Positions 2,553-30,428 of a DNA stretch of 64,000 nucleotides are shown here, piece after piece. Numbering within the stretch: the first letter of the stretch is position 1; each line of letters starts with the position of its first letter. Location: contig JANXBU010000011.1 in assembly GCA_025060505.1 (NCBI GenBank), positions 1 through 64,000 of the forward strand, in the 5' to 3' direction. The notes under the pieces are model-generated. The model was not told the DNA's origin. It worked only from the letters and a program-made list of their open reading frames with translations, and made no database searches. Origin of the DNA: Candidatus Calescibacterium sp. (lineage in GTDB: Bacteria; Calescibacteriota; Calescibacteriia; Calescibacteriales; Calescibacteriaceae). The position numbers and the translations under genes are program-made.

Positions 2553-2564
2553 ACAAAAACGAAT

Positions 2565-2570
2565 TATCTT
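2565..2570 (+). promoter_or_regulatory. Candidate -10 element of a leaderless promoter
   Basis: TATCTT ends exactly 7 nt before the ATG at 2578. No Shine-Dalgarno precedes that ATG. The same geometry recurs at several other genes in the window. Confidence 0.4.
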
Positions 2571-2577
2571 TATTAAA

Positions 2578-3528
2578 ATGTTAAATATGGTATGGAAAAT
2601 CAATAAAAAGATTTTTGTCATATCTCTTGCACTGACTGTTTCTCTTGGAGCGAATATCTTTTTTCTTTTGAACTCGTGCAAAAAGAAAGAAGAGCAACCC
2701 ACAAATAGAGAAATAATGTTTCGTATAGGACAAACGACTATATACATAGATGAGTTCAAAGCTTTCTTAGATAGCCTTCCTGAAATAAGAAAAATTGAGC
2801 TTATACGATATCCGGAGAAAAACACCCAAGTTGTCTCGGAATTCATAGAAGCCGTTTCAATACTTGAATATGCAAGACAAAGAGGATACCTTGATAGACC
2901 AGAGATAAAAATAAGGATTCTATCAAATACGGCAGAATTAGTAAGACCACAGATATTCATAAACGAAGTTAGACCATATATGCAAGTTGATTTCAAAGAA
3001 ATTCAGGAATTCTATGAGAAAAACAAAGAGATGTTCAAACATCCCGAAGTAGCAAGAGTCATGAAAATATCTGGAGACAAAAAGGAACTTGAAGAATTGA
3101 GAAAACAGTTTAAATCAGTAAAAGATTTTGTAGAATACGCTCAGTACAAATACAGTCCAGCTGAGTTTGATTACGGATACATATCAAGAGATGCAAACTT
3201 GCCAAAAGAGATAATAGATATGATATTTTCAATGAATGCAGGGGAAATATCTAAACCTGTAAAGTTCGGAGACAACTACGCCATTTTTGCAGTGATAGAC
3301 AAACTCGGAGAAGGATACTGGCCACTTGAACAGTCTGTTGAGAGAATTTTTAAAGCCGTAAGAGATAAAAAAATAAGAGATAGAATAAGTCAAATAACAA
3401 AAGAATTCTTAGTTTCAACAGATGTATATGTTAATTTTGAAGGAATACAGAAAGAACTTAAAGTTACATTATCAAGAGAAAAATTTGAGCAGATGTTTAT
3501 GGAAAAATTCGTAGGCGGACAGCAGTGA
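2578..3528 (+). CDS. SurA/PrsA-like peptidyl-prolyl isomerase family lipoprotein
   Basis: A 316-residue protein with an N-terminal signal sequence ending in a lipobox-like LNSC (Cys34) followed by KKKEEQ, so probably a lipoprotein. Residues about 45-140 look like a SurA_N-type helical chaperone domain. Residues about 145-265 resemble a parvulin-type rotamase fold (pattern '...HPEVARVMKIS...', '...DYGYISRDANLPKEI...', '...GEISKPVKFGDNYAIF...'). The C-terminal helix is basic and charged. By family it would assist folding of secreted or outer-membrane proteins. The parvulin domain is short and not every canonical active-site residue is evident, so it may be chaperone-only. It lies 25 bp after the subtilase and its TGA overlaps the next ATG. 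Confidence 0.75.
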   Translation: MLNMVWKINKKIFVISLALTVSLGANIFFLLNSCKKKEEQPTNREIMFRIGQTTIYIDEFKAFLDSLPEIRKIELIRYPEKNTQVVSEFIEAVSILEYARQRGYLDRPEIKIRILSNTAELVRPQIFINEVRPYMQVDFKEIQEFYEKNKEMFKHPEVARVMKISGDKKELEELRKQFKSVKDFVEYAQYKYSPAEFDYGYISRDANLPKEIIDMIFSMNAGEISKPVKFGDNYAIFAVIDKLGEGYWPLEQSVERIFKAVRDKKIRDRISQITKEFLVSTDVYVNFEGIQKELKVTLSREKFEQMFMEKFVGGQQ

Positions 3529-5508: not shown

Positions 5509-8500
5509 CTACCAAACAGCGTTAAGTGTATTGTCCCTTCTGAAATGTGGAACATCAGCGATACCGTTTCTGTTTGCTCTACCGGAATACTTTATTTCAA
5601 AGACATAGAAGCATCCCTTATCACCACTTACCATAAGATCTAATCTTTGATTGGAATCTATATCGGTCACGGATAGACCGAAAGAACCTATACCTTCTCC
5701 CTGACGAAGGGCTGATCTTTCTCTCAAATCAGCTCTCTCTGTTGCACTTCCTACATCAAATACATAGAATGGAGACTCATCTGCACCATCCATAAGACCA
5801 ATTATTATTTCTCTATCTCCTCTTGCTCCATCAAAATCACCAACCACAGGAAAAGCATATTCCCAGCCTCTGACCTCAAATCTTGAACCGACTCTGATTA
5901 TACTCAGGGAGCTAAATCTGACCACATTCAGGAAACTCTTCCAGTAGTTATCAGCCCGAAGCTGTGCTGTCTCCACGAATACAGCATATGTCACCCCTCC
6001 AATGAAAGCAGGAACAATACCTCTTATTGTATTCCTGCCCGGTATATCGGAAAGAGTTCCAAGATGAAATGTTGATGTGACATGTGCTCCAAATATGTTT
6101 GATACAAGTACAACATAGTTTGCTCCATTTGGTTGAGTCAATCCTCCAACCCAATCGACATTATTATCTCCATTTACATCTGCAAGGAAACCTTCTTTCA
6201 GATGCCCTGCAAAGCTGATAGTTTTCACTATGTTACAACTGCTATCAAGAACATAAAGATTACCACTTGAATCATTTCCTCCTCCACCTATTACTATTCC
6301 ACTTGGATGAATCAAAGGTATAGACCATATATGCTCCGCAAAAACTCTTGAGCACACAAGAGGATAAGAATTATCAGGATCGAGTACATGCAACATTGCT
6401 CTCTTTTGGTTCGGAGAGTATACGGTAAACACGAGCTCCGGCCTTGAAGAATCTCCTGCAACTATATCGTAAAGAGCTATACCTCTCACATATTTTATGG
6501 TAGATGGTAGGGGATAATTAAACAGAAGATTCCCAAGATTAAGGCTATCTCTCACATGTATATATCCTGGCTCATTAGTAGACCTATGTATAATACCAAA
6601 GACCAACTCATTTCCTGGATTACTACCCAGAACATCTCCAACTGATAGATTACTTGTTATCCACGACATTGAATGCGTATAACTTACGCTAGACAGAACG
6701 GAACCAGATGGAGAAGCTCTGAATATCCAATCTACGTTGTTTGTTGCAGAAAATCCATAGTATATGTTTCCAGCAAAACTTACTGGTGTTGGAGCAACAT
6801 AGTCTGCATTAGTTCCCAAGCAAAGAGGATTCCATTTTTGTACAATTCTAAAACTACCTCCAACAGATGGAGTTGTATCACAGGTATTATCTCCACGGCT
6901 ATTTCCTCCACTCCTCGGCCAACAGTCATCTGTTCTCCCACCTCCATTCACTATAAAACTCAGAGTCTGATTGCCTCCGCTTTCGCCAGAAGATATATCA
7001 GAACCCACAACAGGAGAAGCTAAAATTTGTGCGGAACCAAGAGATTGATTATAAATAAGAACACCATCTGTTATTCTGTAAGAGTAGAGATTTCCGGAGC
7101 CTGTCCCGACAACTATTCTATCTGTCTTCATAAGCGGTGCTGAAGGAATTGATCCCAACTCTTTTAACCATATTATCTTGACATCCAATGATGAATCATA
7201 AGGTGGAACCCTTGTTACCTCAACCAGATAAAAGCTTCCATCTTGAGCTGGTATTGCCAACAATTTCTGAGCTCCTCTGTTATATATCGTGATAACTCTT
7301 GTTATGCTTTCAGAAGGAGAAGTAAGCTGTTTTGTGAAAATTGTAGATGATGAATGCGGAACAAAAGCAATAACTCCTGTTGATGTTCCTGCAAACACCC
7401 CATCTAAATCAGCAGAAAGAAGAGTACTTATTCTTGTAGTATTAGGAGTACACTGCTCAGATGTAAGGTCCAGGTTTCTTCTACATACTCTTCGCTCATC
7501 TCCACCAGCTTCAACAACATAGTAAACCTTATTAATATCAGATAGAACAACAATAGGTCCGGATTCAATGTTATTCGTAAGCGTTATAGATGAAACAGGA
7601 GATAGTTCCAAAATTTTAAGCCTTACTACTTTATTTGGTTTAACACCAACATAAAGATCATCTGTGAGAGCACAGCCGACAATCTGTCCTCCCGCCGCAT
7701 ATTTCCTCATAAGTTTCAGATCGAATCTAAGTTTCAGAACATCTCCACCAGATGTCGTAGCTACAACAGTTACACCTCCAATATAATCTCTCAGACAAAG
7801 ACCACTTATGCTTGACCCAGCATTATACATTGCCACCAACTGTTTCTTGACGGTATCCACAGCATATATATAACCTGTTGAAGTAGCAACATATACAAGG
7901 GTAACACTGCTTGAACTTGAAATGTGAGTTATATTGCCTCCTTGTCCAAGAACAACAGAAGCTATATTGGAACCATCGGTTTTTGTAGAAACACATCTTA
8001 CCTCCGAGTATGAAGAGTAGTATGTATTTGCTCCAATAGTCTTGTAAGCTCTAACTCTGTAGCAGTAATCTTTATTAGCAGTCGTAGATGTATCAACAAA
8101 AAATCCAACGCTAGATAGTGTTACCATCTGAACCCATGTCACCCCGGCGTTTTCTGTTCTTTCTATTTGATATCCATCCTCACCGTCTGAATTATCACCC
8201 CAAGAAAGTCTGATTGTATCCAAGCGCTCAACAAGAAGCGGGTTTGGTGTCCCAAGAATATACTGGCAAACTTCCGAGGTGAACCCTGAACCTCTGACCT
8301 TCAGAGAAACTGGCTCAATAATGTATGAACTTATTGAGAAACACCATGTATTTTCTTCGGTAAGTGATGCAAAGTATGACTCAGAACCAGCTGGCGAAGT
8401 AACATCAATAGGTGTTCCCGGATCTTTTCTCACTTTAAGTAAGAATCCAGTCTCAGTGGTAGAGTTCGCCTGCCATGAGAAAATAACTACATCTGTAGCA

Positions 8501-11500
8501 GGACCTCCCATAACTTTCAGGAAAGACGGTCTATAAGGAGAAGATATAGCACTTACAACATTTGAGTAGCTTGATTGAGTTGTTGAATTAGCTGCCTGAA
8601 CTCTGAACCAGTACCATTTTCCTTCTTCAAGTCCCTGAATAGTTGCAAGAGTAGTGTTAGCTGTAAAAGTAGCAATTTGAGTGAAATTAGTTCCATCAGT
8701 AGAACTTTGAACATAATATGCTGTTTCAGCTGAGGAGTTATCATTCCAAGAAATCTGGAATGCAGAGCTAACTTCTGTTGAGAAAGAACTGATTATCTGC
8801 AAACCAGATGGTGCAACAAGCCCAAGCTCAACACAAGCTATGTTTGACCAACCAGAGAAATCCGAAACCCCCTTGTAAGCTCTAACCTTATAGCAGTAAT
8901 ATCCTTCGGTAAGACCCGTATCAACAAAGTAAGTCACATTAGCGGGAGCAGTTCCAACCATAGAGAAGGTTCCGCAACCAAGACCAGAACATCTCCATAT
9001 CTGAGTTCCATCCTCACCCATCGCATTGTTCACCCAATTTAATGTGACACCACCCGGATAAAGCGCTGCGGTTAGATTAGTTGGAGCAAAAAGGTTTATA
9101 TCTGTACACCAGGAGTTTGAATAGAGAGAATTCAGAGAACCCTTGTAAGACCTTACGCGATAACAGTACTCAGTTCCAGATACTATGCTTGTATCTTCCC
9201 ATGTCACGCTACCTGTTCCAGTTTTTGGTCCCAGAACAGCAATCTGACTATATACTCCACCGTGGTATAACCTTCTTTCTACCTTAAATCCATCTTCAAT
9301 GAGAGAATTATCTATAAAGTAAAGTGTTATTTTATCCGGAGCAACAGTACCTGTAAGACCAGTTGGAGCATGCGGGAATGTCGTTGAGCATGATGTATTG
9401 GAACAAGCAGAATCCCCGAAGCTGTTGTAAGCGGAAACACAGTAGCAGTACACAGTGTACTCGGAAAGACTATGGTTCTCGTAGAACACCAAACCAGTTG
9501 TCGTTGGATTTGAAGATAAAACAGTTGCAGCGAGCGTTCCGGAAAGCGGATTACACCCAGATCCCACACACCTCATAACTTTGAATCCCACTTCATTGGT
9601 AGCATTATCTTGCCATGTGAGGTTTATCTGCGTTGATGAATATGTATAAGTTGTGAGCGATGACGGCGGGTTCGGTATTGGATTAGTTGGCGTTGTGGCA
9701 GAAACAACATTAGAAAATTCAGACCAATTTGGAACAGTATTTGTTGCTCTTACCCTGTAATAATAAGTTGTATTTGATAGAACAGTTGTGTCTGAGTAAG
9801 TTTTAACACCAGTACCAGAGAGTCCCGGAACAGATGTGATGAGCACGAAGTCCGGGTCAGACTGCCCCTTCCTCCATATCTCATAAGATGTTTCTTGTGT
9901 AGAGTTATCTTGCCACTGCAGATCTATCTGGTTTGGTCCAATAGCGTTTGCAACAAGCCCCGTTGGTGTATTCAACCTTGTTCTAGCACAGTTTTCATTT
10001 GAAGGTAGAGATCTCAAATTACCAGAATGTATAAAACTCATCACACGATAGCAAAACTCAGTGTTCTCCGACAATCCAGAATTCAGATATTGAGTGACAT
10101 TTGGTGTAAATACTTGGTGTATGGTAGTCCAGACCGAAGATGAACTTGGTCTTCTTTCTACAACAAATCCCTGCTCCTTTGTTGAGTTATCGTACCATGT
10201 CAAGGTTATTGAGTTTGCAGAAAGCGTTTGTGCGGAAAGTCCGGTTGGTTCCCTCGGGAATGTTGTTGCACTAACAGTTGTTGTATAGTTGGAGAAGTCT
10301 GAACCCGCAAAAGCTCTGACTCTGTAAAATACGGTGGTAGCTTCCGGAAGGCTCTGGTGAGCATACTGTGTAACATTCTGAGCGAGAGTATCAAGTAAGA
10401 CAAAGTTTGTATCCAGACCAACTTGCTGTTTCCATATCTCAAAACCATTTTCTGAGGAGAACGTATCGGTCCATTTTATCTGAATTCTTGTAGAGGTTTC
10501 AGCCCAAGCTGTGATTGGATCCGGAGAACCTTGAAGTTTCGGACATGCTCTTGTTGCACCAAATGAGTATATATCAGATTGAAATCTTGGACATGCTCCC
10601 TCAGGAATTTCTCCCTGAGCTGAAACACCGTAGATTGTGCCTTTTGTTGTTGCGACTAAAAGAATACCAGATGGCATCCAGATATTTGGCCCCACCCTTA
10701 TATCTCCGTTAAGAGAAAGGGACCAAATCAAATTCATCCCACCAGCATTTACAGCATATAAGTTTCCAGAAGTATCTCCTACGAAAATAGTAGAATTACC
10801 CGCATAAGTTGCAAATGATGGGTGAGAATTTATCATACCCAGCGTTTGATAGCTACTTAAAACAGTACCAGAAGGAGAAATTTTTACAAGAGAAACATTT
10901 CCTCCATGCGCGCCCCCAACATATATATTTCCATCTGTTCCAACAGCAGGTGTTGACTCTCCTTTACCAATAGCTATTGACCAGACCACAGAACCTGAGG
11001 AACCATTATCTTGTATTCTGTAAAGTGTATCATCTCCCTTAACATAAATTGCTCCATCTGGAGTCACAGCTGGTGATGTCTCAATTGAACAGTTTATATT
11101 GAGTTGCCATTTCTGAGTTCCTGTGTTTGCATCAAATGCATATACTCTTGAAACTCCTACAACATAAACAGTGGCACCGTTCGGAGAAACAAAAGGAGAG
11201 GTCCTCAGAGGTCTCGGTAACGCTGAAGAAACCCACGCTATTGAACCATCTGTTATATTGACAGCATAAAGCCTGTGATTCGTAACAGTTACATAAACCG
11301 TAGTACCCTTTGGATGAAATGCTGGTGACGAAACAATCGGGGCCTTCCTTTGAGAAAGTTGAACATTCCATCTCAATACAGCGTTGCCTGTAAGAGAATG
11401 CAGATAACCATCATCTGAACCAAAATATATCTCTCCAAAACATCCAACAGCAGGAGATGACCTGATAGCTCCGCCAGTGGTGTACGTCCAAAGCACTGTA

Positions 11501-14500
11501 CCAGTAGTTGTCTCTATAGCATAGAGCTTTTTGTCATCTGAACCTATGTAAGCTATACCGTTGTTGATAGCAGGTGAGGAGTATATTGCTCCGCCTGTTT
11601 GAATCTGATAAGAAATATTCCCCGGTCCAACTGTTGTTCCGCATACAGTATTTGAGAAATCAGAATATGCATTTCCAACATATGCACTTACTCTATAACA
11701 ATATGTTGTGTTTGCAGAAAGCCCAGTATCTGTGTAGGTGTTAGAGTTAGCAGGAAGGTTTGCAACAACTTGATTTGGTGTACAAGATGCACCAGTACAC
11801 CTTTGCAATATATAACCTGCTTCCTTTGATGAATTATCGTTCCAAGAAAGTTTTATGGCAGTTGAAGTTGTAAGAACAACAGATAGAGCTGTTGGAGCAT
11901 TGGGCTTTGAATAACCAACAACAGGAGTTAGGAAAGACGAATAAGTTATCGCATTTGCGTGAGCTCTTATTCTGTAATATATTGATGAACCCTCAGAAAG
12001 TCCAGTATGGTCATAGGTTGTAACATCGCTCAAATTAACGAGTAAAGTATAATTAACACCATCTATGCTCTGCCAAATTTCATAGTTTGTATTCTGTGTG
12101 GAGTTATCTTGCCATGTAAGTTTTATAGAAGATGTTGAAAGAGCTCCTGTTGTCAGATTTGATGGCATTGCTATCAAGGTGACACATGTGACATTTGATG
12201 GAGCAGAATCACCGTGTATGTTGAAAGCTTTGACACGGTAGCAGTATCTCCTATCTGTTGTAGCCGAGTCTGTGTATGTTATTATGTTCGCTCCAACGGT
12301 TGCAGAAACTTGGTAAGGGCCACCCCAGAGGCTTCTTTCTACCTTGAATCCGGTTTCCGTTCCTGAATTATCTTGCCATGTCAGAACAGTTTCTGTTGAA
12401 GATATAACATACGCTGTAAGGTTAGACGGAGCAGCTGGAACTGCTGGCGGTGCTGGAGGAGTTGTTGTACAAGTTTCATCTGTAAATATTGAGAAAATTT
12501 GACCGTTCCATGTATTTGCAAATGCTCTTACTTTATAGCAGTAAGTTGTGTTCGGCATCAGAGCAGTATCTGTAATTGATGTAGTATTAGAAGAAAGCGT
12601 GGCTACAGCTTGGTATGTTCCAGATGCTCCGATCTTTCTCCAGACCTCAAATCCATTTTCTTTTGATGAGTTATCATACCATATAAGAGAAACCGTTTCG
12701 TGATCTATTGCGACAGCCGATGCTCCTGTAGCTGACCTTGGAGCAGTTATAATGCTTACAGTGTTTGAGTAAGCACTTTCTAGAGCACCTTTGAAGGCAA
12801 GAACACGATACCAGTAAGTCTCAACTTCAGAAAGTCCAACATTACTGAAATTCAATGTATTTGCTACAAGAGTAGCCACCGTTGAAAAAGTAATACCATT
12901 CAAAGATCTCTGAACTCTGAACCCATCTTCAACGGCAGAGTTATCTGTCCATACCAGATCAACAATCGAGTGAGGTGATGTAGCTGATAGTTGAGCGTTG
13001 AGAAGAGATGGCGCAAATGGCGGTAAAATAACACTTATCTGCTCAGAGTATCCAGAATATCCAAGATTATTCTTTGCTCTAACTCTGTACCAATAAACAT
13101 TTCCTTCACCTGCTGTTGTGTCTGTATAATGTGTAGCTGAACCCGGTGATGCACTTCCTATAATACTCCATGAAGAACCATTTGGACTTCTTTCTATCTC
13201 AGTGAAATCAGCAAAAGCGTTCACCGTTACCCAGTTCAAAGTTACACTACCCGGATGAGCATAAGGTGAGGTAAGACCCCACGGAGAGCATAATCCCGGA
13301 GCAAACCAACCGGAGTTTCCAAAATCATGTCTGAACTTTGTATAAGCAAATTTTCCGCTCTCCGGTGGAACAACACCTATATTCACCCTATATATACCAG
13401 AGTCCTCGGAACCAAACCATATAGAACCAGATGTTATAACTGGAGAGGATAATATCGCTCCGGTAGCAACTGTACCAGACCAATCAAGAGTTCCTGTTGC
13501 AAGCTGAACAACATAAAACACACCCGAGGCAGAACCGAAAGCTACTTTTCCATTACCAGAAATTGCAGGAGCAGATGTTACAGGAGCCGGAGTTGTGTAT
13601 TTCCATCTCAGGGCCAAAGCAGATGCAGTAGTCCATATAGCATAAAGCCCATCTGAGCCACCCACAAAAACTGTGTCTGTAGTCACTGTTGGAGAAGAGA
13701 TCAAAGATGCTCCAGCCGTACCAATTGTGAACTGTCTTTCGATTGCTCCGGTTGAATAATTTATTTCATAGAGTTTTTCACGAGCAACAACGTAAACCTT
13801 ACCCTGACAGCTCATAGCTGGAGAAGAAAACACAGGCTTCTTAACAAGCTCACCTATCAGAGTCTTCCACCTTATCACCCCAGATTGGTTCAGAGAATAA
13901 AGATAGCCATTTGAAGAACCAAAGTAAACATTTCCTTGAGGATCTACAAGAGTAGAAGAATCAATTTGTCCGGAATCACCGGCGCAATCAGCAGTTGTAT
14001 CATAAACCCAGGATATTGAACAAGATGTACCGTTATCTTGGATTGCATAGAATTTCCTATCTCGTGAGCCGACATAAATCAAAATCGTTCCACTACTTTC
14101 TCTCACACCAACAGATGCAATAACTCCACCACCAACCTGGCACTTCCATATTTCAGCTCCTGTTGCAGCGTTAAGAGCATAAAGATAACCAGATCTTGAA
14201 CCAATATAAACTCTTCCAGTTGAAGAAGTAGCTGGTGAGGCCCAGACCTGCTTTCCGGTATTGTATGTCCAAACAACAGCACAGGTGTTTCTATTTATAG
14301 CACGAACAATTCCATCTTTTGAACCATATATAATTAAGTTCCCATAAGTGACCCCTGTTGAAAACACTCCTCCACCCGTTGAAACACAAGCAGAAGCACT
14401 TGGCCCAAGTGTAGTTGCATTCGCTACATTTGAGTAAGACGAATAAGATTTGGTTCCCTTTCTCGCTCGTACTCTGTATTCATATGTTGTACTTGACAAC

Positions 14501-17500
14501 AATCCAGAATCTACATACTGACATGGACTCAAGGAGCAAGCGATTTCTCCAACCTTATCAAATGTTGGATCACCGGATTTCCTTCTTTCTATCTCATAAA
14601 AATCCTCATGAGATGAATTATCATTGAAAGAAAGTTGTATTTGTGAAGAAGATATAGCGGTTGCGTTGAGAGAAGTTGGAGCAGCAAGAACTCTGACACA
14701 GTCTTGATTCGACGCTGGGGAGTCAGGAGCTCCACCACCTGTTGCCGTTAAAATATAGCAGTACTGTTGTTCAACGCTAACTCCTGTATCATTATGTGAT
14801 GTAACATTCCCCACTGTTGTGTAAAGCGAGCCGTTCCTATATATCTTATAACCCGTATTCTGCGTAGAGTTATCACTCCAAGTTATGTTTACCTGAGCGG
14901 AGTTTGGAGCAAAAGCATTGACAGCAGAAGCCGGTAGAAGAGGAATAGTAACATTTACTTCGTTTGAAAATCCAGAGTATCCCGCAGAGTTTGCAGCAGA
15001 AACTCTGTAGTAATAAGTCTGAGCTTCAAGAACAGAGTAGTCTGAGTATGTTGTGACATTCGTAGGAGTTGAAGCTATGTTTGAATATGTTCCAGCAGCA
15101 CCCAGTTTTCTCTGAATTATAAACCAATCTTCATTATTTGAATTATCTTGCCACTTCAGTTTAACATTATAAGAATCAAATTCATAAATCTGCAAACCAG
15201 AAGGTGCAGCCGGTGGAGCCGCCGGCGGATTATTTGTGTTCTCACATACCTCGGTAGTATATGTAGAGTTCTTTGAACCTTTATATGCTCTGACTCTGTA
15301 ACAGTATTTTGTAGAAGGTGTAAGCCCTGTATCTATGTACTCCTGTACATTTGGACCCACTGTGGCTATTTCTGAATATGTTCCAACTAAAAACAGTCTC
15401 CTTTCAATTCTGAAACCATCTTCAATAGCAGAGTTATCAATCCACGTGAACTTTATAGATGATGCAGATAGAGATACAGCATTCGGATTAGACGGAGCAT
15501 GTGGTGGAGTTAAATCACAATCTTGGTTAGATAAATCAGAGTATCTCAAACCATCTGGTGTATTCGCAACTGCACTAACACGGTAGCAGTACTGTTCTCC
15601 TTCATTCAATCCTTGATCGAGGTAAGATGAGGTGTTCGCAGAAAGTGTTTGATAAACCGACCAACTTCCTGAACCAACCTTTCTCTGGAGTATATAGTTG
15701 TTCTCAACAGATGAGTTATCCGACCAGTTTACCTGAACTTGAGTTGAGCTTGTTGAGAAAGCATCAAGAGCTGTAGGTGTTTTTGGTGGAGCCCAATCGC
15801 AAAGTTCATTTGAAAATTTAGATGCTCCGGCTGTATTTGTTGCACGAACCTTATAACAATGTTTCTGTCCCTCAAACAAACTTGAATCAGCGTAATTTGT
15901 GGTCACCGGCTCAGCTATCTTTGAATATAGTCCAGAACCAACTTTTCTGTGAACCTCAAATCCATATCTTCCAAAAACATCGGTCCAGTTTAAAATGAAA
16001 GTTTCTGCAGAATAAGAGAGTGATGTAAGCTGTGGAGTGCACAACAAACCTCTACCCCACCCTTGTTCATTGTATCTTGAAGATGCCCAAGATGTATCTT
16101 TTGTTGCTCCTGTGCTTCCAATAGCGTAAATATATCCATTCCTTGAAGTAATATAAACTGTTCCATCTGGAGCTATGTTAGGAGATGACCTTATTTCAGC
16201 ACCAGTGTTAAAACTCCAAATTCCAGAACTAGAGCTACTTACAGCATAAAGATAGCTCCCACCAGCAAAATAAACAAGGTTATGTTCAGACAAAGCAGGT
16301 GATGACCAATTTACAGTTCCAGTAGCTGTATATGACCAGAGAGAAACTCCAAATGTTCCGGAATCCTGAATCTTGAAGAGCTTATTACCCGATGTAACAT
16401 ACAAAATGTTTCCATCAACAGCTGGAACAGATTTTATCTCTCCGCCAAGACTTAAAGTCCACTTCAAAGTCCCGTTTGGATTAATAGCAAAGAGATTTCC
16501 TGCTTTGTTGCCAACATATATCGTTCCATCGCAAGAAAGAGCAACTCCACTCTTCACATCACCAGCTGTATAAGACCACTGTAAAACACCAGATGATGAT
16601 ATCTTGTGAATCTTTCCATCACTTCTTGTTGCAACATAAATTGAACCATCTGGAGCAATTGTGGGGGATGCATCAGAGAGCTCGGAAGTAAGCTGCAACT
16701 GCCAAATAACAGAACCGTTTGATCCATTCAATCTCAAAACCTTTCCATCCTTCGTTATAACTACTATGTTTCCAGAGAAATCAATAGATGGCGAGCCATA
16801 AATTGGCCCAGTCTTTCTCCCCCAAACAAGAGAACCATTAGCAGTTGACAAAGCCCATACATTTGGACCACAAGCAACAAACAATCTTCCGTTCGTATCA
16901 TCTATTGCTGGTGCTCCTTTTATAACACATGGACAAGAGTTTGGAAGCGAAGGAATATTTACAGACCACCTTAGACCACCTGACGAATTCAGAGATATCA
17001 GAACTCCGTTATCATTCCCAACATAAACATTTCCGGAAGAATCAACAGAAGCAGGAGCATCTGAGGGAGCACCCAAGTTGTAGCTCCACTTCAAACTACC
17101 TATTCCAGCTGGCTTGAAAAAAATGTTTTTGAAACTTTCCCATATCTTTTCAAGGAATGAAATGTCTTCTTCTTTCACCTCTGGTTCAAAAATTCCTGTT
17201 ATTGACGGTTCGAACTCGTTTATTACAGCAAAAATATCCAAAACAGGTTTTCCTTCAACGATTTTTCCAGATAGAGCGGAACCGTTTATTATAGCATCTC
17301 TTAGATCGGAAGCAGAAGCATTTCTCAGAGAAAGAAGAAGACCGGCTGCTCCGGCTACAAATGGTGAAGAGAAACTCGTTCCACTTGCCAAGCAGTATCC
17401 AATCTCACACGTTGAAAAAATATTTTCACCCGGAGCAAAGATATCCGGATTCTTATTAGAAAAACTGCTTCTTTTTAACCCAGAAGATACCGAACCAACA

Positions 17501-18549
17501 ACTATTATGTTTACAAATTCATCTCTTAAAGAAGCACCAGCTCCAGCCCACTTTGAATCATATCCGCCATTTCCAGCTGACTGAACAAACAAAACATCTC
17601 CGAGATTTCTGAAAACCTGTCTGAAAACAGAATTCACAAAATCAAGAATCTCCTGACTTTCTTCAGGGTTTTCTTCTGGGTTTCTATCCCATTTTATCTC
17701 TCCTGAAAAATTTATAACCCTAACACCGCGCTTTTTGAGCTCAAAAGCACACCACACAATAGAAGCAAGAGAACCATCTGTTCTACAAAGTTCCAATGAA
17801 ACATCAAACATAACACCAGCAACACCTTTTAAGTTCATTCCCTTTGCTCCGATTATCCCAGCAACAAGAGTTCCGTGTCTTGAATTCAGAAAATTGTAGC
17901 TTCCCGCCTCCGTCACACCGCTTACATTTTCTTTCAGGTCATCATGTAGATAGTTGAAACCCCAGTCAATTACACCGATTTTTACAGATTTGCTTCCGCG
18001 AGCAATGTTCCAAGCAGAAGGGAGCCTTACAAGCTCAAAAGCCCAGTTCTTACCCTCTGGATTTTGCTCATTCCAGTTCTCTTCAGACCACTCCGAATCA
18101 TTTGGAACAAAAGCTCCACCAGATAGAATCAAATTCGGTGTTATTCCCAAAACATCAGGATTGTCTGATATAATCTCGGTAACTTTTTCAAGCTCCCCAG
18201 CATCTTTCACTTTCACTCTGAGCTGAACTATAATCAATCCTCTAGTTTCAACTCCACCAAGTATCTCTGGCTCGTATCCGGTTAAACCTACCACATCAAG
18301 AATAACTTTTCTCAAATCATCTTTTGTTCTAACTGCTACCAGGATTTCATCTTGTACTAATCTTATACCTTTCCAGTTTACAACCTTTTCCTTGCTAATA
18401 CCCTGTACAGAAGATGGGATATAGATAGGTTTTTCTGTTTTTTTTCCTAGCTTTGCACAAGAAAAAAACAAAAGTAGAGAAACAGAAAAAACAGATATCT
18501 GAGCGAAAATACGTTCAAAGCGATTTGAGCCTATTGTATTCCCAATCAC
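5509..18549 (-). CDS. Giant modular lipoprotein: subtilase, beta-propellers, 21 FnIII domains, FG-GAP-like tail
   Basis: A 4346-residue protein. Residues 1-31 are a signal peptide with lipobox LFFSC (Cys31). Residues about 60-145 look like an inhibitor/propeptide. Residues about 187-440 are a subtilase with Asp195 (GVIDWG), His225 (RHGTLVAG), Asn327 (SAGNGG) and Ser392 (GTSFSSPFVAG). Then come alternating blocks: PQQ-like propeller about 490-830, six FnIII about 838-1380, propeller about 1385-1745, six FnIII about 1755-2300, propeller about 2305-2655, nine FnIII about 2667-3525, a divergent propeller about 3526-3860, and an FG-GAP/VCBS-like tail about 3890-4346. Propeller blades show repeated 'SSPAI..G.IYVGS.DG.LYA' patterns. 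The start is GTG at 18549, set by a strong GGAGGGAGGAG 11 nt upstream; the nearer ATG hits TGA after four codons. It lies 25 bp after the DUF2341/LamG gene. No sorting domain or C-terminal anchor is seen. Likely a surface adhesin or protease; the ligand is unknown. Confidence 0.9.
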   Translation of the reverse strand: MIGNTIGSNRFERIFAQISVFSVSLLLFFSCAKLGKKTEKPIYIPSSVQGISKEKVVNWKGIRLVQDEILVAVRTKDDLRKVILDVVGLTGYEPEILGGVETRGLIIVQLRVKVKDAGELEKVTEIISDNPDVLGITPNLILSGGAFVPNDSEWSEENWNEQNPEGKNWAFELVRLPSAWNIARGSKSVKIGVIDWGFNYLHDDLKENVSGVTEAGSYNFLNSRHGTLVAGIIGAKGMNLKGVAGVMFDVSLELCRTDGSLASIVWCAFELKKRGVRVINFSGEIKWDRNPEENPEESQEILDFVNSVFRQVFRNLGDVLFVQSAGNGGYDSKWAGAGASLRDEFVNIIVVGSVSSGLKRSSFSNKNPDIFAPGENIFSTCEIGYCLASGTSFSSPFVAGAAGLLLSLRNASASDLRDAIINGSALSGKIVEGKPVLDIFAVINEFEPSITGIFEPEVKEEDISFLEKIWESFKNIFFKPAGIGSLKWSYNLGAPSDAPASVDSSGNVYVGNDNGVLISLNSSGGLRWSVNIPSLPNSCPCVIKGAPAIDDTNGRLFVACGPNVWALSTANGSLVWGRKTGPIYGSPSIDFSGNIVVITKDGKVLRLNGSNGSVIWQLQLTSELSDASPTIAPDGSIYVATRSDGKIHKISSSGVLQWSYTAGDVKSGVALSCDGTIYVGNKAGNLFAINPNGTLKWTLSLGGEIKSVPAVDGNILYVTSGNKLFKIQDSGTFGVSLWSYTATGTVNWSSPALSEHNLVYFAGGSYLYAVSSSSSGIWSFNTGAEIRSSPNIAPDGTVYITSRNGYIYAIGSTGATKDTSWASSRYNEQGWGRGLLCTPQLTSLSYSAETFILNWTDVFGRYGFEVHRKVGSGLYSKIAEPVTTNYADSSLFEGQKHCYKVRATNTAGASKFSNELCDWAPPKTPTALDAFSTSSTQVQVNWSDNSSVENNYILQRKVGSGSWSVYQTLSANTSSYLDQGLNEGEQYCYRVSAVANTPDGLRYSDLSNQDCDLTPPHAPSNPNAVSLSASSIKFTWIDNSAIEDGFRIERRLFLVGTYSEIATVGPNVQEYIDTGLTPSTKYCYRVRAYKGSKNSTYTTEVCENTNNPPAAPPAAPSGLQIYEFDSYNVKLKWQDNSNNEDWFIIQRKLGAAGTYSNIASTPTNVTTYSDYSVLEAQTYYYRVSAANSAGYSGFSNEVNVTIPLLPASAVNAFAPNSAQVNITWSDNSTQNTGYKIYRNGSLYTTVGNVTSHNDTGVSVEQQYCYILTATGGGAPDSPASNQDCVRVLAAPTSLNATAISSSQIQLSFNDNSSHEDFYEIERRKSGDPTFDKVGEIACSLSPCQYVDSGLLSSTTYEYRVRARKGTKSYSSYSNVANATTLGPSASACVSTGGGVFSTGVTYGNLIIYGSKDGIVRAINRNTCAVVWTYNTGKQVWASPATSSTGRVYIGSRSGYLYALNAATGAEIWKCQVGGGVIASVGVRESSGTILIYVGSRDRKFYAIQDNGTSCSISWVYDTTADCAGDSGQIDSSTLVDPQGNVYFGSSNGYLYSLNQSGVIRWKTLIGELVKKPVFSSPAMSCQGKVYVVAREKLYEINYSTGAIERQFTIGTAGASLISSPTVTTDTVFVGGSDGLYAIWTTASALALRWKYTTPAPVTSAPAISGNGKVAFGSASGVFYVVQLATGTLDWSGTVATGAILSSPVITSGSIWFGSEDSGIYRVNIGVVPPESGKFAYTKFRHDFGNSGWFAPGLCSPWGLTSPYAHPGSVTLNWVTVNAFADFTEIERSPNGSSWSIIGSASPGSATHYTDTTAGEGNVYWYRVRAKNNLGYSGYSEQISVILPPFAPSLLNAQLSATSPHSIVDLVWTDNSAVEDGFRVQRSLNGITFSTVATLVANTLNFSNVGLSEVETYWYRVLAFKGALESAYSNTVSIITAPRSATGASAVAIDHETVSLIWYDNSSKENGFEVWRKIGASGTYQAVATLSSNTTSITDTALMPNTTYCYKVRAFANTWNGQIFSIFTDETCTTTPPAPPAVPAAPSNLTAYVISSTETVLTWQDNSGTETGFKVERSLWGGPYQVSATVGANIITYTDSATTDRRYCYRVKAFNIHGDSAPSNVTCVTLIAMPSNLTTGALSTSSIKLTWQDNSTQNTNYEIWQSIDGVNYTLLVNLSDVTTYDHTGLSEGSSIYYRIRAHANAITYSSFLTPVVGYSKPNAPTALSVVLTTSTAIKLSWNDNSSKEAGYILQRCTGASCTPNQVVANLPANSNTYTDTGLSANTTYCYRVSAYVGNAYSDFSNTVCGTTVGPGNISYQIQTGGAIYSSPAINNGIAYIGSDDKKLYAIETTTGTVLWTYTTGGAIRSSPAVGCFGEIYFGSDDGYLHSLTGNAVLRWNVQLSQRKAPIVSSPAFHPKGTTVYVTVTNHRLYAVNITDGSIAWVSSALPRPLRTSPFVSPNGATVYVVGVSRVYAFDANTGTQKWQLNINCSIETSPAVTPDGAIYVKGDDTLYRIQDNGSSGSVVWSIAIGKGESTPAVGTDGNIYVGGAHGGNVSLVKISPSGTVLSSYQTLGMINSHPSFATYAGNSTIFVGDTSGNLYAVNAGGMNLIWSLSLNGDIRVGPNIWMPSGILLVATTKGTIYGVSAQGEIPEGACPRFQSDIYSFGATRACPKLQGSPDPITAWAETSTRIQIKWTDTFSSENGFEIWKQQVGLDTNFVLLDTLAQNVTQYAHQSLPEATTVFYRVRAFAGSDFSNYTTTVSATTFPREPTGLSAQTLSANSITLTWYDNSTKEQGFVVERRPSSSSVWTTIHQVFTPNVTQYLNSGLSENTEFCYRVMSFIHSGNLRSLPSNENCARTRLNTPTGLVANAIGPNQIDLQWQDNSTQETSYEIWRKGQSDPDFVLITSVPGLSGTGVKTYSDTTVLSNTTYYYRVRATNTVPNWSEFSNVVSATTPTNPIPNPPSSLTTYTYSSTQINLTWQDNATNEVGFKVMRCVGSGCNPLSGTLAATVLSSNPTTTGLVFYENHSLSEYTVYCYCVSAYNSFGDSACSNTSCSTTFPHAPTGLTGTVAPDKITLYFIDNSLIEDGFKVERRLYHGGVYSQIAVLGPKTGTGSVTWEDTSIVSGTEYCYRVRSYKGSLNSLYSNSWCTDINLFAPTNLTAALYPGGVTLNWVNNAMGEDGTQIWRCSGLGCGTFSMVGTAPANVTYFVDTGLTEGYYCYKVRAYKGVSDFSGWSNIACVELGLVAPSGLQIISSFSTEVSSAFQISWNDNSSAETAYYVQSSTDGTNFTQIATFTANTTLATIQGLEEGKWYWFRVQAANSTTQSSYSNVVSAISSPYRPSFLKVMGGPATDVVIFSWQANSTTETGFLLKVRKDPGTPIDVTSPAGSESYFASLTEENTWCFSISSYIIEPVSLKVRGSGFTSEVCQYILGTPNPLLVERLDTIRLSWGDNSDGEDGYQIERTENAGVTWVQMVTLSSVGFFVDTSTTANKDYCYRVRAYKTIGANTYYSSYSEVRCVSTKTDGSNIASVVLGQGGNITHISSSSSVTLVYVATSTGYIYAVDTVKKQLVAMYNAGSSISGLCLRDYIGGVTVVATTSGGDVLKLRFDLKLMRKYAAGGQIVGCALTDDLYVGVKPNKVVRLKILELSPVSSITLTNNIESGPIVVLSDINKVYYVVEAGGDERRVCRRNLDLTSEQCTPNTTRISTLLSADLDGVFAGTSTGVIAFVPHSSSTIFTKQLTSPSESITRVITIYNRGAQKLLAIPAQDGSFYLVEVTRVPPYDSSLDVKIIWLKELGSIPSAPLMKTDRIVVGTGSGNLYSYRITDGVLIYNQSLGSAQILASPVVGSDISSGESGGNQTLSFIVNGGGRTDDCWPRSGGNSRGDNTCDTTPSVGGSFRIVQKWNPLCLGTNADYVAPTPVSFAGNIYYGFSATNNVDWIFRASPSGSVLSSVSYTHSMSWITSNLSVGDVLGSNPGNELVFGIIHRSTNEPGYIHVRDSLNLGNLLFNYPLPSTIKYVRGIALYDIVAGDSSRPELVFTVYSPNQKRAMLHVLDPDNSYPLVCSRVFAEHIWSIPLIHPSGIVIGGGGNDSSGNLYVLDSSCNIVKTISFAGHLKEGFLADVNGDNNVDWVGGLTQPNGANYVVLVSNIFGAHVTSTFHLGTLSDIPGRNTIRGIVPAFIGGVTYAVFVETAQLRADNYWKSFLNVVRFSSLSIIRVGSRFEVRGWEYAFPVVGDFDGARGDREIIIGLMDGADESPFYVFDVGSATERADLRERSALRQGEGIGSFGLSVTDIDSNQRLDLMVSGDKGCFYVFEIKYSGRANRNGIADVPHFRRDNTLNAVW
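7970..10550 (-). repeat. FnIII array 3 of the giant protein (nine domains)
   Basis: Nine consecutive domains of about 90-100 residues with the pattern W.DNS..E.GF...R at the front and YRV.A near the end. Six carry a Cys in the YC[YF] position and a second Cys in the last strand; three carry neither. Two also contain a CxGxxC turn after the first Arg. Confidence 0.85.
11650..13290 (-). repeat. FnIII array 2 of the giant protein (six domains)
   Basis: Six consecutive FnIII domains between propeller blocks 2 and 3. Three have the paired Cys of strands F and G and three have neither. The last also has the CxGxxC turn (RCTGASC). Confidence 0.85.
14410..16035 (-). repeat. FnIII array 1 of the giant protein (six domains)
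   Basis: Six consecutive FnIII domains between propeller blocks 1 and 2. Four have the F/G-strand Cys pair. Two have neither, one of which contains a separate local pair (ACSLSPC). Confidence 0.85.
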
Positions 18550-18560
18550 AGCTCACACAT

Positions 18561-18572
18561 CTCCTCCCTCCT
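18561..18572 (-). promoter_or_regulatory. Strong Shine-Dalgarno of the giant lipoprotein gene
   Basis: On the minus strand this reads GGAGGGAGGAG, starting right after the stop of the upstream lipoprotein gene. It decides the GTG start at 18549, because the ATG touching it opens a four-codon frame only. Confidence 0.7.
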
Positions 18573-18574
18573 AC

Positions 18575-21500
18575 CTACTCTGTTGAGTCCTCTATTGCTC
18601 CATAAGAAACAGCTGGTTGAGTTCCATCCTTTCTAACTCTGACCCATCTTACCTCAATATCATCTATATCGTTAGTGTTGGGAGAATTAAGACCTTGAAA
18701 GTCACCCAAAAATAAATAAGGTGCTCCGGGCTCCTGTTCAGGAGTTTTATCTCCACCCCCGAGCAATCCACCTCGCCACTGCCCACTAACTGTTTGAGAA
18801 GCCAGAGATGTATACAACGCATTATTTATATAGTATATAAACTGTGATGAGTTGAACCTAAAACCCCCAATATACCAAATGAATTCAGTTATGGTATGAA
18901 GAGTACCCGCAAAAACATCATAAGAAGCAGAGTCTCCCTCGGCTCCCCAGATTGTAAGGTGTTCAGTGTTACCAACTGGACTATCTCCGGCCTCCGTCAT
19001 CCAATAAGCTAAACAGTCAGCTTGAGTATTGCTTCCCGATGTTCTATCATCATCTGCTATGTTTATACCAGCGTAAAGGACACTTGAATTCCACCATCTT
19101 GTAAGTATTTCAAATGCTCTTCCAACATTTGAATGAGCTACTGCATAGCGTGAAACAAGATTCCCAGTTCTTACAACAACTCCGTTACTGACAGTATAAT
19201 TAGAAGAATTAGCGTTCCATTTTGTTGTATCTACCGTATTTCCAGGGAACTCATCAAAGAACTCAAAGGTTCTATCACCAGAACTTATAGATGCTTTAGA
19301 TGTGTTTCCGAAATAAGCATAAAGAGTTGACGTTCCAGCTGTTATATAAGGTATTTTTACCCAAACCCGAGACCTTCCTTCATAAAGCATTCTCACCTCA
19401 TACGGTGCAAGTTCTCTGTTGAATATACGCAAATCATCAATATAACCTTCCCAATCTTCAGCGGCAGAAAAACCAGCACAGCTTGTCCCTGATATACTAT
19501 CTGTTTCCTGCCCAATAACAGTGCAAATGACATTTAAAGGTCCCGTTGTGAGATCACCTCTCGCTGCTCTCAAAACTCCATCAACATAGAGCCAACCACC
19601 ATTTCCGTTAGTAGCTCCCCTTACAAAAACTATATGGTGCCAGCTTCCATCTTCGATATTCACACCGGCTGGAAAATTAAAAGCAGTGTTTTTCACATGA
19701 ACCTGAATTGTATCATTTCCAGCCGTGGTGAGCTTATATATCAGAAGTTCATCAGGACTCCCTGATGTTGCAGCGGAAATAATAGAAGCAGGTCCTCCGT
19801 TATCTCCTTTTGTCCACCTGACCCATACTGAAATAGAAAAAGAAGTTCTTCCATCGAGAACAGTTCCGGGGATAGTGACAAAATCAGTAGTTCCATCAGG
19901 AACGAGGTTCACACCTCCCCCATATATTCCACCCCCCCAACTTGCACCAGAGAGAGTTCCTGTATTCCCATTTCCGGAAGAGTCAGAAGCCGAAGTTCCA
20001 GATGTCTCATTGAACTCCCACCAAGAAAGTAATGTAGGATCTCCTCCACACGGACCACGTGCTTCAAAATAATACGGGAAACTTAAATTCCAAAGATCAA
20101 CTTCAAAGTACGGGGAATCAGAAAATCTGAGGTCCCCACAATCATTTCTTATTGTATCAAGAGTTATGGGCAATGTAAGCGGTAGTTCAAAAACAACTTC
20201 AAAATCTCTGAGCACAAAAGTTGAATTCAAAGTTATTGGAATTCTTCTCAAAAATAAACCAGTGTAAGATGCAGAAGTCTCTACACCAACAGAAACAGAA
20301 ACATCCGCGTACTTTGCTACCGCAATGTCATCGAAGTAAGCATCTCTTGAGCCTCTTATAGCTACCCTATCAAAAACAACATGGTTCGCATCAGTAGCAT
20401 TCAGTGTTTGACTACCATTAGCATGAGTAAATTCTCCAGTGATGTTTGATCCTCTTTTGTAAAAGACAACCATCTGCCATTCGCCAGTATCAGTTGTACC
20501 AGGAGCTGTTCCAGAAGCAATATTTGCTCCAAAATTTCCATTATCAAACCTCTGTATCCATATCCCATCATCAGTTGTGCGGACTATAAAAGAATATCCA
20601 TCATATTTAACACTATGCAGATATATAAGATCATATTGCGTATCTGCTGTATTTACTCTTTTGAATCTCCACATAGCAATAAAATTTGAAACAGGATATG
20701 GGAATAATCTTTCTCCACCGTTATAGTAATCTCCTCCCCCAGTTAGAGAACAACCGGAAGCAGTGTTAGCACAACCTTTCATTATAACCATGTTCCCGCC
20801 ATCGTTGTGCGCCTCAAGAATTCCGGAACCAATATGTGTCCAGCCCGGAGGTGGTCTTTGACCATCTGTGTAAGATTCGGCATTATCATAAAACACGAAA
20901 ACTTTGTTCGGGTCTGAAACAGCATCTGCATTTTCATTTCCATAATACATATAAATTGAGTTCGCTCCGGACGGAAGGTACGGTATTTTGACCCAGAAAA
21001 CTGTTGCTGAGGTGTTGCAGGTACTCTGCCCAAGCCTGTTTATACCTATCCAATATGGTATAAAAATTTCATCTGTTTGATCCGTGAATCTTACATCGGA
21101 GCAATCCGCTTTCATCTTTCCACCAGAAATTAATGCAGCAGTATTCAGAGTAACACGCACCACTACATCTGTCTCTGGTGTTGAGCTGTTCGTGACCGTT
21201 ACTACTCTTCTGTAAGCCCATCCACAACCAGCTGATTTGCCCCTGATACGAGGAGAAGAGCGAGCAGATAGACAAACAACAGGTGAAGCAAAAAATTCTC
21301 TTGAATATCCAGAATCTCCCAAATTGTTTATCGCACGCGCTCGGTAAAACCATACACCCTCACTTTCTACTTTATCTTCAAATTCAAATTTTCCGGATTT
21401 CTTTACATCATCATCAACAGAAATCTCTTTTAGTTTTTCCCAATTCGTATCCTCTCCTCTTCTTTCAACTATGACCTTCTGAGCGTATGGTGGAACAGAT

Positions 21501-22024
21501 ACTTCAAGTCGAAAAGTCAAATCTTTGTATGAGCTTATATAAATTGATGGATCAGACAAAGTTCTCAATTCAAGAATACCGGAAGAAACCCCATCCGCAG
21601 ATTCAACCTGAAAAAGAACAAGGTTATCCGGTGAAACAGGAATCTGAACTTTACCTGAATCAAACAAATCTGATTCTTGATACCTTGCAACAGTCTCGCC
21701 ACTTTGATCTTTTTCTTCCCCAACTTTCAGCTGATAAGAAAGATATTGCCAATCTGTTTTTGATCCTTCTTCATATTTCATTTTTATTTTTACTGGAACA
21801 GCTGGCTCCCAGATCAAAACAGCAAACCCATCTTTGTACTCTCCCCTTAAAGTAATCTGATTAGTATCTCCTTTTTTATCTGACACATTTCCAACAGATT
21901 GACCCCTCTGATCACCTGAATCCAAAGCGCAACCAAAGTAAAGAAACAAAAAGAGAGTCGCAAATACAATCTTTATCCTTCCTCCCTTTACCTTGTTTTG
22001 CAGTGATTCGATTTTTTGATTCAT
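18575..22024 (-). CDS. Lipoprotein with FnIII, DUF2341 and nested LamG (concanavalin-like) domains
   Basis: An 1149-residue exported protein. The signal sequence ends at FGC (Cys32), a near-lipobox. Residues about 150-250 contain an FnIII-like domain (WFYRARAINNLGDSGYS). A complete DUF2341 domain follows (YRRVVTVTNSS ... VWVKIPYLPSGANSIYMYYGN), then a jelly-roll-like segment after FYDNAE. A second DUF2341 (FLRRIPITLNS ... LRFSDSP) is interrupted by a full LamG domain (LLSWWEFNETSGT ... YIDDLRIFNRELAPYEVRMLYEG) and resumes at VWVKIPYITAGTSTLYAYFGN. A third jelly-roll-like segment (EFFDEFPG...) closes the protein. DUF2341 and LamG are common in surface carbohydrate-binding proteins. Translation is set by GGGAGGACC 8 nt before the ATG. 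It is the first gene of a two-gene unit with the giant protein. Confidence 0.85.
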   Translation of the reverse strand: MNQKIESLQNKVKGGRIKIVFATLFLFLYFGCALDSGDQRGQSVGNVSDKKGDTNQITLRGEYKDGFAVLIWEPAVPVKIKMKYEEGSKTDWQYLSYQLKVGEEKDQSGETVARYQESDLFDSGKVQIPVSPDNLVLFQVESADGVSSGILELRTLSDPSIYISSYKDLTFRLEVSVPPYAQKVIVERRGEDTNWEKLKEISVDDDVKKSGKFEFEDKVESEGVWFYRARAINNLGDSGYSREFFASPVVCLSARSSPRIRGKSAGCGWAYRRVVTVTNSSTPETDVVVRVTLNTAALISGGKMKADCSDVRFTDQTDEIFIPYWIGINRLGQSTCNTSATVFWVKIPYLPSGANSIYMYYGNENADAVSDPNKVFVFYDNAESYTDGQRPPPGWTHIGSGILEAHNDGGNMVIMKGCANTASGCSLTGGGDYYNGGERLFPYPVSNFIAMWRFKRVNTADTQYDLIYLHSVKYDGYSFIVRTTDDGIWIQRFDNGNFGANIASGTAPGTTDTGEWQMVVFYKRGSNITGEFTHANGSQTLNATDANHVVFDRVAIRGSRDAYFDDIAVAKYADVSVSVGVETSASYTGLFLRRIPITLNSTFVLRDFEVVFELPLTLPITLDTIRNDCGDLRFSDSPYFEVDLWNLSFPYYFEARGPCGGDPTLLSWWEFNETSGTSASDSSGNGNTGTLSGASWGGGIYGGGVNLVPDGTTDFVTIPGTVLDGRTSFSISVWVRWTKGDNGGPASIISAATSGSPDELLIYKLTTAGNDTIQVHVKNTAFNFPAGVNIEDGSWHHIVFVRGATNGNGGWLYVDGVLRAARGDLTTGPLNVICTVIGQETDSISGTSCAGFSAAEDWEGYIDDLRIFNRELAPYEVRMLYEGRSRVWVKIPYITAGTSTLYAYFGNTSKASISSGDRTFEFFDEFPGNTVDTTKWNANSSNYTVSNGVVVRTGNLVSRYAVAHSNVGRAFEILTRWWNSSVLYAGINIADDDRTSGSNTQADCLAYWMTEAGDSPVGNTEHLTIWGAEGDSASYDVFAGTLHTITEFIWYIGGFRFNSSQFIYYINNALYTSLASQTVSGQWRGGLLGGGDKTPEQEPGAPYLFLGDFQGLNSPNTNDIDDIEVRWVRVRKDGTQPAVSYGAIEDSTE

Positions 22025-24966: not shown

Positions 24967-26047
24967 CTATACCCGCTGTTTTAGTCTTGGAATGACCTTT
25001 TTGCAAAGCAACTCCATTGAGTTCTTAACTTTTCTGTGGTCAAGTCCTCCAAGACGAGTCCAACACAATATATCTGTAAGTTTGTATGATTTTATAAGAT
25101 CGTACATCTTACGCACAACATAATCTGGATCACCAACCAAAAATCCATGCGAAAACGGACCATCCTCAACGACTGATTTGAAAGTCAAAACTCCCTGATC
25201 ATAAGCTTTAAGATACTCCAGCATAAAGTTATGTAAATTCGCATAAAAACTTTCTGTACCCGGGTACTTTGTAGCGGGTATGAGCTTTACAAGATTTCTG
25301 AAATACCACATACAAGGCTTTTCAAAGTCATAAAGAGCCCTTTCTCTATCTTCATCAATGTACACGAAAACAAGAGCACATATTCTGAAATTTTTCGGAT
25401 CTTCTCCCATATCTTTCAAGGTCTGTACATACTCATCGTATTTTATCAGGAGTACAAAGAAGCTGGCTGAAAAGCAAATTCATCTTTTTGAGAGCCTGAA
25501 ATTTTATAGTCTCGGGATTAAACGATGCTCCAAAAAACGGAGGATGTGGTTTCTGAAGAGGCCTTGGTCTGGGCTTGACCCCTTTGAATCTGAAAAATTT
25601 TCCCTCAAAGTTCACTTCTCCATACTCCCATGCCATTTTTATTATCTGGAGCATCTCCTCAAATCTTTCTCTACTTTCCGATATCGGGATTCCATATCCT
25701 TCAAACTCGTGTGGCTGGTATCCTCTTCCGACACCAAAATCAAGTCTTCCTTCAGAGAGAACATCAAGCATTGCAAACTCCTCTGCCAATCTTATGGGAT
25801 TGTGAAAAGGAAGAACAACAACACCTGAACCGATCCTTATTCTTTTGGTTCTGGAAGCAACAAAAGAAGCAAAAACCTGAATTGATGGCATGACTCCATA
25901 TTCTGAAAAATGATGCTCCGCAAACCAAGCTGTATCCATTCCTACGCTATCAGCAAACTCAACTATCTCAACATTTTCTGCATAGAATTCTTTCTCCTCT
26001 TTACCATCAGGAGATTCAAAAAGGTGTAGCAAACTTACTCTGACCAT
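24967..26047 (-). pseudogene. LLM-class flavin-dependent oxidoreductase, frameshifted
   Basis: Two adjacent frames together make one luciferase-like monooxygenase of about 359 residues. The N-terminal part (26047-25433; TAWFAEHHFSEYG, IRIGSGVVVLPFHNPIRLAEE, GRLDFGVGRGYQPHEF) stops at TGA. The C-terminal part continues one frame over (KYDEYVQTLKDMGEDPKNF ... GFLVGDPDYVVRKMYDL). The shift maps to an AAAA run at 25444-25441: removing one A restores PDKYDEYVQT. The site is not a classical programmed-frameshift heptamer. This may be a real disruption or a homopolymer assembly error. The neighbouring gene on the same strand is also broken, which favours real decay. Confidence 0.8.
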
Positions 26048-29479: not shown

Positions 29480-29595
29480 ACAGACCCTCACCTCCTTTTT
29501 TATCAAACAGTGTATATTTTAAAAATCTCTTGTTGAAGTATCAAGCTTCAAGAATATCTATTGTTAAAGCCACTATTCAAACATAAAACTTTGTC

Positions 29596-30231: not shown

Positions 30232-30344
30232 TTGTCAGATCTAACAGCACGCTCAGCAATATTAGACTATTACCATCTGCACCAATTCTAAAAAATTTTG
30301 TTTAAAGCTAGATACTCTTGCTTTGAACTTAAATTGGAAAGAAA

Positions 30345-30422
30345 GCCCCCGTCGTCTAGCCAGGACTAGGACGCCGGGCTCTCAATCCGGAAACAGGGGT
30401 TCAAATCCCCTCGGGGGCGCCA
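30345..30422 (+). tRNA. trnE: tRNA-Glu (CTC), CCA encoded
   Basis: The acceptor stem GCCCCCG pairs with CGGGGGC and is followed by G and an encoded CCA (30420-30422). The anticodon arm is CCGGG-CTCTCAA-TCCGG with one G-T pair, giving anticodon CTC at positions 34-36 (reads GAG). The T arm CAGGGGTTCAAATCCCCTC is canonical. The sequence resembles other bacterial tRNA-Glu along its length (CGTCGTCTAGCC...). Only six bases separate its CCA from the ATG of the second bacterioferritin. Confidence 0.97.
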
Positions 30423-30428
30423 TAATAT

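Follow-up and report, generated by a model that had tools for sequence, protein, structure and literature searches.

The 4346-residue protein P1, encoded on a single open frame of the window (the whole 64,000-nt stretch of DNA analysed), is best read as a multi-domain exported subtilase of a diderm, and its combination of domains, its size and its family of relatives with a swapped middle are new within the searches made. We favour a protease, secreted or retained on the cell surface, that digests or matures proteins and carries a rod for binding; the sequence shows its domains, its motifs, the order of the genes and the machinery of the genome, while we infer lipidation, processing, retention, exposure and substrate. 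The DNA comes from a MAG of 2.28 Mb (115 contigs, 86% complete), in which the window is contig C18; the host falls in the Ca. Calescibacterium family, the nearest relatives including Candidatus Calescibacterium nevadense, a hot-spring lineage. Calescamantes have been judged Gram-negative and heterotrophic, with peptidases and peptide transporters (PMC4791363), and the Omp85, LspA and LolA families are encoded in the host's own genome. The phylum is thermophilic and uncultured, with a cell surface of which little has been described, and P1 gives it a very large subtilase that looks intact. The features considered below are the following.

5509..18549, minus strand: whole P1 ORF, 4346 aa, GTG start, single frame without internal stop
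18561..18572, minus strand: Shine-Dalgarno AGGAGGGAGGAG, read from the sequence and rated strong, 11 nt 5' of the P1 GTG, inside the 25-nt intergenic gap
18457..18549, minus strand: signal sequence and lipobox-like FFS-C (Cys31), residues 1-31, from sequence, deviating from [LVI][ASTVI][GAS]C
18127..18390, minus strand: propeptide-like domain, residues 54-141, modelled b-a-b-b-a-b at low to moderate confidence, weak profile match
17230..18057, minus strand: S8 subtilase domain, residues 165-440 (PF00082 E 3.9e-31, matches to solved sequences, motif positions)
17965-17967, minus strand: D195, subtilase motif
17875-17877, minus strand: H225, subtilase motif
17569-17571, minus strand: N327 (oxyanion Asn), subtilase motif
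17374-17376, minus strand: S392 in GTSFSSP, subtilase motif
16111..17100, minus strand: propeller 1, BamB/PQQ-like, 8 blades by fold match, residues 484-813 (Pfam, AF2, Foldseek)
14428..16038, minus strand: FnIII domains 1-6, residues 838-1374 (iterated profile, Pfam fn3)
13300..14388, minus strand: propeller 2, residues 1388-1750 (PF13570 E 2.3e-48)
11650..13290, minus strand: FnIII domains 7-12, residues 1754-2300 (iterated profile)
10555..11634, minus strand: propeller 3, residues 2306-2665 (PF13570 E 5.4e-44, sequence match to solved 8-bladed designs)
8002..10530, minus strand: FnIII domains 13-21, residues 2674-3516 (iterated profile)
6835..7992, minus strand: propeller 4, diverged, residues 3520-3905 (PF13570 E 6e-10, below cut-off; hhalign)
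5512..6837, minus strand: C-terminal FG-GAP-like tail, residues 3905-4346 (63.6% identity to the paralogue tail, hhalign to the G002 homologue)
6052..6777, minus strand: conversion tract common to P1 and its paralogue, residues 3925-4166 (4-fold sites)
18575..22024, minus strand: 1149-aa lipoprotein-like protein with DUF2341 and LamG, candidate partner, same strand as P1 and upstream of it across the 25-nt gap
L005:1-6633 with L006:10859-11998, minus strand: paralogue of P1, with Cys-rich repeats of ~150 aa and Glu at the catalytic Asp

The protease head agrees with the original prediction of an intact Asp/His/Ser subtilase, since D195, H225, N327 and S392 all lie in canonical motifs. The PF00082 score is 108.9 bits against a curated cut-off of 21.8, and 124 solved sequences match the domain, the best being Deseasin MCP-01; the active-site geometry rests on the motifs, as the AF2 model of the catalytic domain was unusable owing to a shallow alignment. 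The lipobox proposed at the N-terminus stood only in part: a lipoprotein-type signal with Cys31 is present and, in FFS-C, Ser at -1 and the Cys fit the consensus, but positions -3 and -2 do not. Residues 56-141 are modelled as b-a-b-b-a-b, the fold of subtilase propeptides, and the domain displayed a weak in-register profile match to Fervidolysin_NPro (20% vs 0.2% for a control). Subtilase maturation cleaves after the propeptide domain. Given that the lipid would lie on the propeptide side of this normal processing site, an active P1 enzyme should cut itself off its own anchor; a lipid on Cys31 would remain with the propeptide, freeing the ~4,200-residue remainder. The suggestion of a protease that stays lipid-anchored at the base of the rod is not supported in that form, as a propeptide-like domain separates Cys31 from the catalytic domain, and P1 is probably freed from its lipid anchor on maturation. 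Whether lipidated subtilases cut themselves off their own anchor becomes testable with this protein.

Beyond the head, the chain runs propeller, six FnIII, propeller, six FnIII, propeller, nine FnIII and propeller, followed by the 440-aa FG-GAP-like tail. An iterated profile, seeded from P1 itself, counts exactly 21 FnIII domains, in arrays of 6 (838-1374), 6 (1754-2300) and 9 (2674-3516). In a Pfam scan of whole P1, Peptidase_S8 (E 3.9e-31), fn3 (8.6e-56), Beta-prop_ACSF4 (2.1e-122) and PQQ_2 (7.8e-75) all exceed their curated cut-offs. Scanned singly, propellers 1-3 are each above the Pfam cut-off; propeller 4 alone reaches 39.5 bits against a cut-off of 133 (E 6e-10), and aligns with propellers 1-3 in a profile-to-profile comparison by hhalign at 96% probability over 318 columns. 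Pfam, the FnIII profile and hhalign accordingly bear out the four propellers and 21 FnIII domains first proposed. Propeller 1 has an AF2 model (block pLDDT about 62-94) whose Foldseek matches include the solved 8-bladed propellers Cake8 (TM 0.93 by target length), BamB and YxaL. The profile of PQQ-dependent dehydrogenases (TIGR03075) scores 59 bits on P1, below its cut-off of 480. Standard domain lengths are about 3.5 nm per FnIII and 4-5 nm per propeller, and their rough sum gives a rod of roughly 90-100 nm.

The tail is FG-GAP-like by way of a homologue and not by a direct match. Pfam finds no family in the P1 tail, FG-GAP included; FG-GAP is clear in Pfam at the end of the G002 homologue, and the P1 tail aligns with that FG-GAP half at a moderate hhalign probability of 52% (E 1.5e-4). 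The AF2 model of propeller 4 and tail is too weak to interpret (mean pLDDT 44.5), its last 440 residues being mostly beta. The tail may well form a fifth propeller.

In the explanation that we rank first, and to which we give about an even chance, P1 is a zymogen of the S8 subtilase kind that a thermophile exports, with a rod of ~90-100 nm fused to it; it would release itself and then be held by a partner or shed. After export, the chain would receive its lipid on Cys31 and travel to the outer membrane. The propeptide, following known subtilase biochemistry, would fold the catalytic domain and then be cut near residues 142-150, parting mature P1 of ~4,200 residues from the lipid. Mature P1 may then be held at the cell by the DUF2341/LamG lipoprotein, or shed, as the dentilisin analogy suggests. 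The propellers and the LamG partner could bind glycans or proteins of a microbial streamer or mat, the FnIII arrays serving as putative spacers, and the subtilase would digest or mature the bound proteins, feeding a peptide-using heterotroph. No export route for P1 across the outer membrane was identified, which counts against this explanation.

Dentilisin of Treponema denticola is the closest guide to such a release. Its acylated 15-kDa propeptide is found apart from mature PrtP; PrcB and PrcA1, lipoproteins whose genes lie upstream in that operon, are believed to retain the mature enzyme (PMC8167434). The layout of P1 resembles that of PrtP, with a putative lipid on the propeptide side and a lipoprotein-like gene upstream; the propeptide homology is weak, and P1 may be processed and bound in a similar way. 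PrtP is far smaller and carries no such rod; its profile, NF033595, scores 44.1 bits on P1, short of the equivalog cut-off of 300. The DUF2341/LamG protein is likened to PrcA/PrcB by gene position. P1 and this upstream gene each have their own ribosome site, in an operon-like layout. Nevertheless, a search of four family genomes did not find the upstream gene, which among the five occurs in the own genome only, and it does not lie beside the paralogue, so it is no fixed partner, and its absence in relatives makes a partner role less likely. The neighbourhood of P1 in the four relatives keeps only YjeF, hence no empty site is readable.

Other known systems resemble P1 in part. NalP of Neisseria is likewise a lipidated subtilisin-like protease and releases surface proteins (PMC5472700), but it has an autotransporter beta-barrel, for which P1 gives no Pfam match. 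In the streptococcal ScpA/SpyCEP, a surface S8 protease is followed by FnIII domains and the propeptide is removed autocatalytically (PMC9082167), a layout like that of P1, but these enzymes have a C-terminal LPXTG anchor, a PA insert in the protease, three to four FnIII-like domains and no propellers; P1 shows no PA match in Pfam, and its C-terminus, ...FRRDNTLNAVW, is without LPXTG. The STABLE protease on tetrabrachion of Staphylothermus marinus, a hyperthermophile subtilase on a 70-nm surface stalk (PMC5744192), may also be likened to P1, yet it consists of separate proteins, with a coiled-coil stalk in an archaeal S-layer.

The unusual order of domains claimed for P1 was sustained for the exact alternation and not for its kind. 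The alternation was found in no other genome examined, within the reach of the search; a head scan of 84,980 species, with a query limited to two peptide patterns, returned only two already known relatives, no relative turned up among viral contigs, plasmid records gave partial P1 matches only, and literature searches for the architecture brought no match. However, two 889-aa proteins (L053 in G019 and L054 in G166; L053 scanned) combine a prodomain, S8 and a BamB/PQQ-like propeller in one chain, although they belong to another family, are one fifth of the length of P1 and have no FnIII array that was found. Giant subtilases elsewhere (L049, 4115 aa; L050, 2955 aa) also carry S8 followed by long arrays that include propellers, but with PD40 or NHL propellers, PKD, VWA and NosD in place of the PQQ-propeller and FnIII arrays. 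For subtilases, FnIII rods, propellers and giant size are each already known or were found in other genomes.

The relatives of P1 bear on how much of its function is proteolytic. The paralogue is split over contigs C19 and C34, whose ends have 68 identical bases in common; joining them there gives one open frame of 2568 aa. Its orthologue in G002 is an unbroken ORF of 2540 aa and that in G004 is incomplete, exiting the contig end; G001 and G003 yielded no family member at E 1e-12 in genomes that, as for all relatives here, are incomplete. The heads of these proteins are 34-35% identical to that of P1, their middles consist of repeated Cys-rich domains of ~150 aa instead of the propeller-FnIII alternation, and FnIII domains number five in the paralogue and five in the G002 protein. 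The Cys-rich domains match no Pfam family, nor did the Cys-rich middle of the paralogue match any plasmid record. The propeller/FG-GAP tail is kept in both complete relatives (paralogue and G002), that of the paralogue sharing 42% of residues with P1 over propeller 4 and 64% over the final stretch, and that of G002 being more distant from P1. As judged from these sequences, head and tail are constant in the family, whereas the middle is exchanged.

The catalytic residues diverge within this family. The paralogue and the G002 protein have Glu (VIEFG) in place of the Asp, which G004 keeps, and all three relatives lack the Pro that follows the Ser motif; with Glu in two of the four members, catalysis is not strictly kept, and together with the lost Pro this makes selection on general proteolysis in the family look weak. 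The paralogue may have lost or altered catalysis, and the family may include altered or inactive members. These substitutions speak for an adhesive stalk in which propeller and FnIII binding is the function and the subtilase is either vestigial or cuts only itself, a single time, to release the propeptide and shed the rod. About 85-90% of the P1 chain consists of binding or spacer domains, and recent homogenisation has affected the C-terminal tail rather than the protease, which also suits a stalk. Such a stalk is possible, though on balance doubtful, as P1 retains D195, H225, N327, S392 and GTSFSSP and the G004 protein also retains D, H and S. Judged by motifs, P1 is the family member most likely to be an active enzyme.

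The homogenised part of the tail spans ~240 codons in which silent sites are nearly identical between the two tails of the genome: 4-fold sites agree in 84/99 cases within the tract, 50/104 upstream and 6/27 downstream. Its sharp borders point, at the sequence level, to recent gene conversion between P1 and the paralogue. An assembly mix of the two tails is less likely; the tails, which share an exact run of 86 bp, could have been swapped in assembly, leaving the architecture unaffected. With constant ends, an exchanged middle and recent conversion, the pair illustrates how giant multidomain surface proteins can be rebuilt. One may further speculate, at rather long reach, on a group of diversifying giant surface proteases, in which a constant head and a converted tail would flank a middle swapped between propeller-FnIII and Cys-rich forms to alter grip, the lipidated propeptide would be a release switch handing the rod to a partner lipoprotein or shedding it, and some members would have changed Asp to Glu.

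A lipid-anchored P1 facing the periplasm, with BamB-like propellers acting in envelope quality control, appears improbable. BamB, a periplasmic lipoprotein, is the best-studied propeller homologue, a surface export system was not identified, and a second subtilase is encoded nearby together with a PpiC-type rotamase, all in keeping with this placement. Yet the BamB profile (TIGR03300) reaches 196.7 bits over several stretches of P1, below its equivalog cut-off of 285.2, and a chain of roughly 90-100 nm fits the periplasm poorly. Moreover, arrays of FnIII, LamG and FG-GAP domains typify extracellular proteins.

That P1 is encoded as one continuous gene, as originally proposed, is supported by its 4346-aa frame, its own Shine-Dalgarno and an in-frame stop codon closely preceding the GTG. 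An assembly artefact fusing separate genes, for which one could cite the 115 contigs and 86% completeness of the MAG and the break of the paralogue over two contigs at a stretch identical to the P1 gene, is highly unlikely because the 13-kb frame is single and open, its internal DNA repeats never exceed 81 nt or ~79% identity, its third-position GC (0.280) equals that of neighbouring genes, and the independent genome G002 links head and tail within one 2540-aa ORF. Foreign origin of the gene, considered for its GC of 0.41, above that of its surroundings, was rejected, as GC3 is the same as in the neighbours and the excess sits at second positions, which is expected of a beta protein rich in Ser, Thr and Gly. 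Block duplication of a propeller with six FnIII domains was also discarded, the pairwise FnIII identities forming no diagonal and the closest pairs being scattered (F2-F12, F3-F17, F10-F16). A scan for promoters and terminators gave a result close to chance level.

Several further genes were observed. Near the 3' end of the P1 gene lies the second subtilase; it has 731 aa, carries the triad motifs and a hydrophobic stretch at its C-terminus, and is weakly CspBA-like. A gap of 25 nt separates it from the PpiC-type rotamase (316 aa) that follows, the pair spanning 357-3528 on the plus strand. On the minus strand, two neighbouring ORFs at 24967-26047 divide a luciferase-like monooxygenase between them, covering profile positions 1-182 and 214-308, which is either a broken gene or a sequencing frameshift, and a probably exported protein of 510 aa, with two or more PKD domains, lies at 27974-29506. 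Tandem ferritin-like genes (155 and 156 aa) are found at 29764-30899 on the plus strand. Finally, G002 encodes large lipoprotein-like proteins of 1888 and 1907 aa (L036:6132-11798, minus strand; L037:6479-12202, plus strand), in which D-C-D-D...N-P motifs recur, the repeats are RCC1-like or FG-GAP-like and the C-terminus is hydrophobic.
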